A stretch of DNA of 64,000 bases from positions 62,001 to 126,000 of the forward strand of contig NZ_PEND01000006.1 in assembly GCF_002844195.1 (NCBI RefSeq), read 5' to 3'. Under the pieces are notes generated by a model. The model was not told the origin of the DNA. It was given only the letters and a program-made list of their open reading frames with translations, and did not search any database. The DNA comes from Halegenticoccus soli. GTDB taxonomy: Archaea; Halobacteriota; Halobacteria; Halobacteriales; Haloferacaceae. Both the position numbers and the translations under genes were made by a program. Positions 48,153 to 60,913 of the stretch are shown piece by piece. Within the stretch, counting starts at the first letter, position 1, and every line of letters starts with the position of its first letter.

Positions 48153-48929
48153 ATGGCGCAGATCGAAGCCTACCTGGACGCCGTGCCGGCGCGGTGGTGG
48201 CTCGCGCTGGGCATCCTCCTGCTCGGCGTCCTCCTCGGGTACGTCGTCAACGTCGTGAACAATCGACTCCTCCGCCGGGCGGGCGTCCCGGAGGCCATCG
48301 AGGGGACCGCCTTCGAGCGGATGGCCCGCGACCTCGGCACCTCGACCGTCGCCATCCTCGCGCGGCTCAGCATGTACTTCGTGGTCGTGCTCGCGATCCT
48401 CGTCGCGCTTACCATCGCCGAGATCCGGTACACGGAGGTTTTCTGGAGCCAGGTGGTCGAGTTCATCCCGCAGGTCTTCATCGCGCTTCTCATCCTCATC
48501 ATCGGCGTCGTCGTCGGCGAGAAGGTCGAACTGCTCGTCGCGGAGCGGCTTCGCGGGGTGAAGCTCCCCGAAGTCGGATTCATCCCGGCGCTGGCGAAGT
48601 ACAGCGTCTTTTACGTCTTCGTGCTCATCGCACTGAGCCAGGTCGGCGTCGCGATCCTCGCGCTCGTGGTGCTGCTCGGCGTGTACGCCCTGGGAATCGT
48701 CGTCCTCAGCGCGATCGCCTTCGGCGACATGCTCTCGTCGGGCGCCGCGGGCGTGTACCTCCTCTTGACCCAGCCCTACGGCATCGGCGACGAGGTGAAG
48801 ATGGGCCAGCGCCGCGGCGTCGTCCAAGAGATTGACGTGTTCGTCACCCACGTCGAGAGCGACGGCGACGAGTACATCATCCCGAACAACAAGGTGTTTC
48901 AGGACGGGATCGTCCGGATCCGCCGGTAG
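48153..48929 (+). CDS. MscS-type mechanosensitive channel, membrane part
   Basis: A 258-residue protein with five or so transmembrane helices and the start of the MscS beta domain: AGVYLLLTQPYGIGDEVKMG (about 200-219) followed by RGVVQEIDVFVTHVESDGDE and IIPNNKVF (about 244-251). It ends just after this point, so the large C-terminal vestibule of E. coli MscS is missing. Coupled to dacZ, it fits a role in osmotic relief, possibly under c-di-AMP control (inference). Confidence 0.9.
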   Translation: MAQIEAYLDAVPARWWLALGILLLGVLLGYVVNVVNNRLLRRAGVPEAIEGTAFERMARDLGTSTVAILARLSMYFVVVLAILVALTIAEIRYTEVFWSQVVEFIPQVFIALLILIIGVVVGEKVELLVAERLRGVKLPEVGFIPALAKYSVFYVFVLIALSQVGVAILALVVLLGVYALGIVVLSAIAFGDMLSSGAAGVYLLLTQPYGIGDEVKMGQRRGVVQEIDVFVTHVESDGDEYIIPNNKVFQDGIVRIRR

Positions 48930-48976
48930 GCGATCGTCCGGGTCTACCGATAGGCGGTCGTCCGGTCTACCGATGG
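48906..48976. repeat. Tandem copies of the mscS 3' end beyond the stop codon
   Basis: The last 24 bases of the gene (48906-48929, GIVRIRR plus TAG) are repeated as 48930-48953 (which would read AIVRVYR plus TAG) and 48954-48976 (same pattern with one base lost). Units two and three agree at 21 of 23 positions. Confidence 0.8.
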
Positions 48977-55881: not shown

Positions 55882-56838
55882 ATGGACGCGAACGTTCTGG
55901 ACACCATCGGGTCGCCCCTGGTTCGGGTACGGTCGCCCGAGGGGTCGACCATCGCGGCCAAGCTGGAGTCGAAAAACCCCGGCGGCTCCGCGAAGGACCG
56001 CCCCGCGCTGTACATGATCGAGGCGGCCGAGCGCGCGGGGGCGCTCGAACCGGGCGATCACATCGTCGAGCCGACGAGCGGCAACACCGGCATCGGCATC
56101 GCGATGGTCGGCGCGGCGAAGGGGTACGACGTGACGATCGTCATGCCGTCCTCGAAGTCCCCGGAGCGGCGGCGAATCATGCGGGCGTACGGCGCCGAGA
56201 TCGAGCTCGTCGACGGCACCATCACGGACGCCAAGGAGCGCGCCGACGAGCTGGAAGCCGAGGCGGGGATGACCCAGCTCCGGCAGTTCGAGAACGAGGC
56301 GAACCCCGAGTCGCACTACCGGACGACCGCGGAGGAGATCTTAGCGCAGGTCGACGGCCGGGAGATCGACGCGTTCGTCGCCGGCGTCGGCACGGGCGGC
56401 ACGCTCACGGGGATCGGCAGGCGGCTCCGGGAGGCGTTTCCGGAGGTGGAGATCGTCGGGGTCGAACCGGCCGACAGCGCCGTTCTCTCCGGCGAGGAAC
56501 CGACGGGCGACAGCTTCCAGGGGATGGGGCCGGGGTTCGTCAGCCCGAACCTCGACGTCGACCTGCTCGACGGCGTGGAGACCGTGACGATCGGGGAGGC
56601 CGAGGCCGAGTGCCGCCGCCTCGCCCGCGAGGAGGGGATCCTCGTCGGCCAGTCCAGCGGCGCGGCGAACCTCGCGGCGAAGCGCGTCGCGGAGCGCATC
56701 GCCCGCCCGGAGCTGAACTGCTCCGACGCGGCCGACGGGCTCACCGCGGACGGATCCGGCGACGACTGCCCGCTCGTCGTCACGGTGTTCCCGGACGGCG
56801 GCGAGCGGTACATGTCGACCGGGATGTTCGACCGGTGA
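55882..56838 (+). CDS. Cysteine synthase-family PLP enzyme
   Basis: A 318-residue fold-type II PLP enzyme. The PLP Lys is in ESKNPGGSAKDRPAL (about 29-43), TSGNTGIG (about 64-71) binds the substrate carboxylate, and GTGGTLTG (about 170-177) binds phosphate. It would replace the leaving group of O-acetylserine or a related substrate by sulfide; cystathionine beta-synthase-type specificity cannot be excluded. GGTTTACG about 27 bases upstream implies leaderless start. A 12-base near copy of its 3' end (TCGACCG[C]TGAG) recurs 44 bases later. Confidence 0.9.
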   Translation: MDANVLDTIGSPLVRVRSPEGSTIAAKLESKNPGGSAKDRPALYMIEAAERAGALEPGDHIVEPTSGNTGIGIAMVGAAKGYDVTIVMPSSKSPERRRIMRAYGAEIELVDGTITDAKERADELEAEAGMTQLRQFENEANPESHYRTTAEEILAQVDGREIDAFVAGVGTGGTLTGIGRRLREAFPEVEIVGVEPADSAVLSGEEPTGDSFQGMGPGFVSPNLDVDLLDGVETVTIGEAEAECRRLAREEGILVGQSSGAANLAAKRVAERIARPELNCSDAADGLTADGSGDDCPLVVTVFPDGGERYMSTGMFDR

Positions 56839-56886
56839 GATCGGACGGCGGATCGAAATCCCGACCGCCGCTCGACCGCTGAGCCC

Positions 56887-56981
56887 GTTCTCGGCCGCCG
56901 AATTCCTTCTCGGCCGTCGAACTCCTTCTCGGCCGTCGAACTCCTTCTCGGCCGTCGAACTCCTTCTCGGCCGTCGAACCC
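56887..56981. repeat. 19-bp tandem array next to the DUF5804 gene end
   Basis: Five adjacent 19-base units, consensus CTTCTCGGCCGTCGAACTC (56887-56905, 56906-56924, 56925-56943, 56944-56962, 56963-56981). Units two to four are identical. The consensus matches the DUF5804 gene's own 3' end (stop and last codons, around 56986-57003) at 15 of 18 positions. Confidence 0.9.
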
Positions 56982-56987
56982 GCTCGC

Positions 56988-57440
56988 TCAGCCGCCGAAC
57001 TCCTCTTCGGTCACGCGGACGACGACGGTGTCGTCGACGTCCCGGAGGTCGTAGTCGGGGATCTCCCCGCCGACCCGCGTGAGGAACATCGGTTCGACCA
57101 GCCGGCCGTCGTCGACGCCGTACACCTTCAGCAGGTCGCCCGTCTCGGCCGGGTCGACCTCGCCGTCCCTGATCGCCCTCGCCAGCGGGCGGGAGAGCCA
57201 CTCCCCGTCGCTGACGCTCGGTTCGAGCACGAGCGCGGCGTCGACGAACCGCACGAGGTACCAGTTCAGGTCGTTCAGGAGCGACACCGCCGCGCCGACG
57301 CTGACGGTGTCGACCGCGACGGCGTTCTCGAACGGCTCGCGGAGCTCGTACGTCGAAAGGGCGTCCCTGGAGGTTTCGCGGGAGAACAGTTCGTACCGGA
57401 GGTTCACGTCCGGCTTCCCGACGAGACAGACCCGCGTCAC
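56988..57440 (-). CDS. DUF5804 family protein
   Basis: A 150-residue haloarchaeal conserved protein starting MTRVCLVGKPDVNLRYELFS. VSVGAAVSLLNDLNWYLVRF (about 46-65) and RPLARAIRDGEVDP are strongly typical of DUF5804, function unknown. The start is GTG; GCTTTAC about 28 bases upstream suggests leaderless transcription. The 3' end merges into the 19-bp tandem array. Confidence 0.88.
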   Translation of the reverse strand: MTRVCLVGKPDVNLRYELFSRETSRDALSTYELREPFENAVAVDTVSVGAAVSLLNDLNWYLVRFVDAALVLEPSVSDGEWLSRPLARAIRDGEVDPAETGDLLKVYGVDDGRLVEPMFLTRVGGEIPDYDLRDVDDTVVVRVTEEEFGG

Positions 57441-57582
57441 ACTCGATCGAAGTCGGGGGTCGAGTAAAGCGGTTGCGGTGATCGACGGAGACGAGACGAT
57501 CCCGACGACCGGCTGAAGCGAGATCGCCGAGCAACTCGGGGGGCCGGAGCCGTCCGCGGTCGCCCCCCCGACGGACGGCGAG

Positions 57583-59650: not shown

Positions 59651-59719
59651 GAGGCCGATCCTCAGAAGGTGGAGAGGCTGATCCTCAGAAGGTGGAGAGG
59701 CCGATCCTCAGAAGGTGGA
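59651..59719. repeat. Three 23-bp tandem copies of the mat 3' end
   Basis: Units at 59651-59673, 59674-59696 and 59697-59719 differ at only one position. The third unit contains the stop (59708-59710) and the last three codons (Ser-Thr-Phe) of the minus-strand mat gene, so the terminal coding bases have been repeated twice beyond the stop. Confidence 0.9.
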
Positions 59720-60913
59720 GATCTCGCCCTCGATCGCCCGCCGGGTGACCGAGGTCACGTTCGCCAGCTCCCGGTCGACGATCGCGCGCACGTCGTCCTC
59801 GACGTCGGCGACGGAGACGCCCTCCTGGGTGACGAGCTGGGCGTCGGCGACGTGCGGCCGGTCGATGGGGCGGCCGATCTGGCTCAGGAGGCGGACCTGG
59901 AGGTCGCGGATGCCGTCGACCTCGGAGACGACCGACTCCGCGATCTCGGTCGAGAGGAGGTTGTAGATCTTCCCGATGTGGTTGACGGGGTTCTTGCCGC
60001 TCGTCGCCTCCATGCTCATCGGGCGATTCGGCGTGATGAGCCCGTTCGCGCGGTTGCCGCGGCCGACGGAGCCGTCGTCGCCCTGCTCCGCGCTCGTGCC
60101 GGTCGTCGTGAGGTAGATCGACCCCTCCTCGTAGTTGTCTGCGGTGTTGACCTCGACGCCGATCTCGCGGTCCGTGTACTCGCGGGCGAGATCCGTCACG
60201 AACTCCCTGACCCGCGCGACGGCGGCGTCGTACTCGTCGAGGTCGTCGACGTACCTGTCGATCATCGCGGCGGCGACCGTGATGTCGATGCGGTCGCCCT
60301 CGCGCTTGCCCATGATCTTCACGTCCGGCCCGAGTTCGGGGTGGTCGGCGGCGAACGTCGTGTTGAGCTCGCGCTCGGCGTTGAGGACGATCCGCTCCGT
60401 CTCTGTCAGCGGCGCGTGGCCGACGCCGAAGCTCGTGTCGTTGGCCATCGGAACGGTCACGTCGTTCTCGCCGAAGACGTCCTGGAGGTCGCCGCTTCCC
60501 TCGCCGAGCTTCACGTCGACCACCACCTCGGTGCCGAACTCCAGCTCCGGGATGTGCGCGTTCAGGTACTCGCGGGCGGCGGCGAGCGCGACCGAGTCGA
60601 CCGGGATCCGCTGGCCCTCGTACTCCTTCGTCGCGCGGCCGACGATGAGCACGTAGATCGGCTCGATGACCTCACCGCCGCCGAACGCCGGGGCCGCCGA
60701 GCCGGCGACCAGCTGCGTCTCGTCGGTGTTGTAGTGGAGAACCTTTCCGACGCGGTCGAGGTAGGTCTGCGAGAGCGCCCGCGAGACGCTCTCGGCGATG
60801 CCGTCGCAGATGGAGTCGGGGTGGCCGATCCCCTTCCGCTCGACGATCTCGACCGCCTGGTCCTCGACCGCGCGCCGGTCGAGTTCCGCGACCTGGATGT
60901 TCCGAGTGGTCAT
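59708..60913 (-). CDS. mat: Archaeal methionine adenosyltransferase
   Basis: Makes S-adenosylmethionine from methionine and ATP; the archaeal form, not homologous over its length with bacterial MetK. It has 401 residues. [20 protein letters not shown] (about 22-41) and [12 protein letters not shown] (about 60-71) match archaeal [20 protein letters not shown] (about 293-309) is another conserved block. The start follows TTATA at 60941-60946 by about 30 bases, so it is leaderless. Downstream lie tandem copies of its own 3' end. Confidence 0.96.

Follow-up and report, generated by a model that had tools for sequence, protein, structure and literature searches.

A question raised by the 3' end of the DUF5804 gene in Halegenticoccus soli is how the tandem repeat beside it arose, and whether that repeat has a role in the gap between this gene and a convergent cysteine-synthase-like gene. 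The repeat lies in a window of 64,000 nucleotides (nt), the whole stretch of DNA that was analysed. On the minus strand, five units of 19 base pairs (bp) with the consensus GAGTTCGACGGCCGAGAAG stand head-to-tail at positions 56887-56981. With a probability of roughly 0.8, they form a lineage-specific, non-coding, neutral-looking minisatellite that was started by a duplication spanning a stop codon.

A first-pass annotation of this DNA had described a five-unit array of 19 bp in which units two to four are identical and the outer ones diverge, and comparison of the units bears this out. The three inner units (56906-56924, 56925-56943 and 56944-56962, minus strand) each agree with the consensus at 19/19 positions, the unit nearest DUF5804 (56963-56981) at 18/19 and the farthest of the five (56887-56905) at 16/19; in plus orientation the 16/19 unit comes first, then the three identical units, and the 18/19 unit last. 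Beyond the five, a degenerate sixth unit (56868-56886, minus strand, 12/19) lies on the side of the cysteine-synthase-like gene, and a gene-end copy (56984-57002, minus strand) contains the last codons and the TGA stop of DUF5804. Tandem Repeats Finder (TRF) places the array at 56888-57004, with a period of 19, 6.1 copies, 89% matches and a score of 174, the highest of the 29 TRF rows in the window (runner-up array, 135), while 20 shuffles of the window that preserve dinucleotide composition scored 73 at best. As the annotation had also stated, the array sits in a convergent gap, which is bounded by the stops at 56838 (+) and 56988 (-) and covers 149 nt (56839-56987); apart from the gene-end copy, it is outside coding sequence. 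Minisatellites are above-chance tandem arrays in which units of some 10-60 bp follow each other head-to-tail, and in its size, its copy number and a score well over the shuffle maximum the array belongs among them.

The array is also lineage-specific, being missing from the nearest relative found, Halegenticoccus tardaugens (hereafter the sister), whose DUF5804 is 89% identical. In the sister the same two genes converge across a gap of 41 nt without any repeat. When 170 genomes of the family were searched at the DNA level, with five candidates scored per genome, the array matched in full in the H. soli genome alone and not at all in the sister (the sole other genome of the genus in the sample, G001, which was taken as the same genome as the sister locus L004). 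Weak partial matches were present in 22 of the 169 other genomes, the best with an E value of 5.5e-7 and 81% identity over 61 nt; these were treated as chance similarity of G+C-rich sequence, the loci not being inspected singly. Within the H. soli genome, 23 sites match the unit with at most three mismatches, five of them in the array and 18 as scattered singles with three mismatches each, and no second array of the unit was found. As all of the sites outside the array are such singles, a dispersed family resembling repetitive extragenic palindromes (REP) or miniature inverted-repeat transposable elements (MITE) was ruled out. A search of 56500-57500 against Rfam gave no matches up to an E value of 1, and thus no known structured RNA, and the exact two-unit pattern had no matches in viral contigs. 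In a plasmid collection, four records (two of Streptomyces and two of Halomicrobium) have weak partial matches in annotated genes, which were taken as chance.

The founder of the array is probably the end of the DUF5804 gene itself, as the annotation had proposed. Among 538 sampled gene ends of the H. soli genome, that of DUF5804 ranks first for similarity to the unit, by a narrow margin (a score of 26, compared with 25 and 24 for the next gene ends). The accompanying claim that the gene end matches the consensus holds approximately, with 19 of 23 positions agreeing in a local alignment, but not exactly. The gene end is older than the array, because EF is encoded within the last six residues in 79 of 80 relatives. 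Furthermore, the far unit (56887-56905) retains the GGCGGC of the gene end, and the inner units share GACGGC, a pattern that would fit a later spread of the inner units. The position of the TGA stop reads CGA in the units.

From the sequence, a course of events can be proposed in which the array would have been founded when about 19 bp at the end of DUF5804, with its final codons and stop, became duplicated in tandem. The copy past the first stop would then have been free to decay, as the change from TGA to CGA suggests, and slippage or unequal exchange would have multiplied and homogenised the inner units. Either mechanism of copying is plausible, and the identical inner units, together with the absence of the array in the sister, support growth of this kind, which the annotation had put forward. 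The array may have persisted because a duplication across the stop leaves the protein unchanged and because a gap between convergent 3' ends should hold no promoter. It looks like an ordinary repeat of fairly recent date and appears to have no function, nothing having been found that points to one.

The end of DUF5804 is not special in carrying such a repeat, as arrays that span a stop codon are found repeatedly in haloarchaea. The window itself contains two others: an array of 23 bp in 3.1 copies (59651-59721, minus strand) at the 3' end of the methionine adenosyltransferase gene (59708-60913), the copies of which carry TGA, and an array with a period of about 24 in 2.8 copies (48908-48974, plus strand) at a gene ending at 48929. 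Both are absent from the sister. Across 644 kb of the H. soli genome, 64 non-coding arrays were counted, of which 11 span a stop and none a start. Elsewhere, stop-spanning, start-spanning and all arrays number 5, 2 and 31 in the sister, 0, 1 and 9 in genome G165, 8, 0 and 21 in genome G005, and 5, 1 and 29 in the flanks of 80 species. When pooled over gaps of at most 600 nt, with genomes G103 and G146 included, 30 arrays span stops, two span starts and 95 are purely intergenic; without the 600-nt limit the numbers are 32, 5 and 169. The proportion varies by genome, from 0 stop-spanning to 7 intergenic arrays in G165, 1 to 17 in G146 and 2 to 10 in G103, up to 7 to 3 in G005 (gaps of at most 600 nt). 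A limited search of the open-licence literature found no report of stop-spanning arrays in haloarchaea.

These counts rest on genes called with a simple codon-usage script rather than an established gene finder, and stretches with less than 65% called coding were dropped (11 of 41 in H. soli, 4 of 16 in the sister, 6 of 20 in G165, 7 of 20 in G005, 6 of 20 in G103 and 4 of 20 in G146, all 80 short loci being kept). One stretch, L120 (G000:C3:300001-320000), has just 1.9% of its 20 kb called coding, far under the other stretches, perhaps as a foreign or degenerate region or through failure of the caller. Several single loci were also noted. At L109 (12671-12814), a 23-bp array of 6.3 copies has six copies that repeat the gene end, including its TAG stop. 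Small repeats of their own stand at the DUF5804 stop in three of the 80 relatives, namely Natronomonas gomsonensis (L040), Haloprofundus marisrubri (L059) and Halorussus amylolyticus (L013), and in a fourth relative (L011) an 11-nt word of the DUF5804 gene end recurs downstream.

Array coverage around genes bears on why stops are crossed so often. Coverage increases from 2.4% at the stop to its broad maximum, 4.8-5.4%, at +30 to +50, and is then 4.1-5.0% at +60 to +130 and 3.0-3.9% further on. At starts the value is just 0.1%, and 4% is not reached until about 80 nt upstream. Over all sampled gaps, the depletion of arrays extends from starts to about 70 nt upstream, the zone in which promoters and leaders are expected. 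The simplest reading is one of tolerance, in which duplications are silent over stops and are removed near starts. A mechanism specific to 3' ends is less favoured, because the rise in coverage passes through the stop without peaking there and ends at the intergenic level, and because coverage around starts is low.

Several observations weigh against the reading of the DUF5804 array as a neutral minisatellite founded by the gene end. The match of the gene end to the unit is imperfect (14/19, with a 2-nt offset), is ahead of the second-ranked gene end by a single point, and has a p value of 0.04 against shuffles of the gene's own repetitive downstream sequence. A change in copy number is unobserved, the comparison being of one genome per species. 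As a whole, the gap is predicted to fold more stably than its dinucleotide shuffles (z -4.46 on the plus and -2.89 on the minus strand), with shuffles as stable in 0 of 200 and 1 of 200 cases, respectively. Finally, the density of stop-spanning arrays is 1.8 times that of purely intergenic ones (30 in 35,340 positions and 95 in 205,410, position counts that assume a 21-nt unit; p 0.004), and some added tendency for arrays to form at stops is possible.

The last of these points would agree with a mechanism specific to 3' ends, for instance breakage linked to transcription or termination, that seeds arrays at stop codons. The scores of stop-spanning arrays are likewise higher (median 87, compared with 69 for purely intergenic arrays, p 0.04), and the three top-scoring of the 64 non-coding arrays in the H. 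soli genome all span stops; both comparisons of scores, and that of copy numbers below, were looks taken after the fact. However, coverage has no peak at the stop, the excess was 2.3-fold before G103 and G146 were added, convergent gaps alone hold 14 stop-spanning and 19 intergenic arrays (p 0.10), and copy numbers are alike in the two groups (p 0.27). Relaxed constraint, together with a conserved first copy, could account for the small excess. A mechanism of this type is therefore unlikely, and so is the broader proposal that haloarchaeal gene 3' ends are mild hot spots, at which a process at the end of transcription would repeatedly duplicate stops downstream and of which this array would be among the largest products.

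The folding of the gap bears on a proposal of the first-pass annotation, namely that the array may be a bidirectional transcription terminator; such a terminator would act through repeated hairpins of the self-complementary CGGCCG units. The five-unit array alone also folds better than dinucleotide shuffles on the two strands (z -3.25 and -2.27), and in a study of Haloferax volcanii, one hairpin sequence led to termination of 59% of transcripts in a reporter assay (PMC7237163). However, dinucleotide shuffling destroys the repeat, and five copies of a shuffled unit were therefore used for comparison; these were as stable as the five real units in 145 of 1000 cases on the plus strand and 239 of 1000 on the minus strand. 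A T stretch is given in the same study as the main intergenic termination signal of H. volcanii, AGATC and a hairpin being less effective in reporters (PMC7237163). No T run longer than three occurs in the gap on either strand (the longest is 2 on the plus and 3 on the minus strand), and no terminator-like site was detected in 56500-57500. The missing T run is weak evidence, because four consecutive T occur within 100 nt in just 15% of the 538 sampled gene ends. The sister, in which the same genes converge, does without the array. A terminator made of the five units is thus unsupported and quite unlikely.

Transcripts might instead end in a part of the gap that the five units do not occupy. 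The motif AGATC is present at 56838-56842, its first base being the final one of the cysteine-synthase-like stop codon, and a stretch at 56841-56875, which overlaps the degenerate sixth unit and lies outside the array proper, is predicted to form a hairpin. Folding of 56836-56886 gives -19.4 kcal/mol on the plus strand (z -2.11) and -24.9 kcal/mol on the minus strand (z -1.96), energies in favour of such a site but with modest z values. In H. volcanii, AGATC is described as a weaker motif at coding-region sites, with 11% and 27% termination in reporters, but in that study it is located downstream of the end site and within coding regions (PMC7237163). Termination here is possible, though doubtful; if the gap does terminate transcripts, the motif and the hairpin are better candidates than the five units.

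The annotation had also pointed to a near-palindrome in the units, TCGGCCGTCGA, as a possible site for protein binding. The palindrome is exact only in its 6-bp core, CGGCCG. Repeated units with such a core could in principle form an array of binding sites for a DNA-binding protein. However, CGGCCG is an ordinary 6-mer that occurs 180 times in the window, a palindrome of equal length arises in 1182 of 5000 shuffled units, no other array of the unit is found in the genome, and the sister locus has none. Protein binding is thus unsupported, and very improbable.

In anatomy, the array is most like the minisatellites and variable-number tandem repeat (VNTR) loci of prokaryotes, with non-coding units placed head-to-tail, an identical middle and diverged edges, a unit that is not repeated elsewhere in the genome, and restriction to one lineage. 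VNTR loci are defined by variation of copy number among strains, whereas the array is known from one genome of its species. Partial repeats at the flanks are a feature shared with the tandem repeats of archaeal Borgs, the units of which are described as perfect and A-enriched, on extrachromosomal elements (PMC9879509), while those described here are G+C-rich and imperfect and are carried on a 359-kb contig of a 4.6-Mb haloarchaeal draft genome (G+C in the window, 70%). In a survey of prokaryotic satellites, about 40% are arrays of unique sequence unrelated to any other, and the present array is likewise unique in sequence (PMC6749651). The short-repeat satellites of Halobacteria described there differ, as they are mainly multiples of three and probably coding (PMC6749651), and the unit here is 19 bp and non-coding.

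Of the two flanking genes, DUF5804 (56988-57440, minus strand; PF19120, 150 amino acids) has its stop codon inside the gene-end copy. Its convergent neighbour (55882-56838, plus strand; PF00291) is described here as cysteine-synthase-like; its best NCBIfam model, cysKM, scores 324.9 bits, under the cut-off of 344.15.

Taken alone, the array is a neutral-looking repeat and at most a strain marker. The wider result came as a by-product: in the haloarchaeal sample, small tandem arrays cross stop codons and avoid starts to about 70 nt upstream, and a repeat that has grown from a gene end therefore needs no special explanation.
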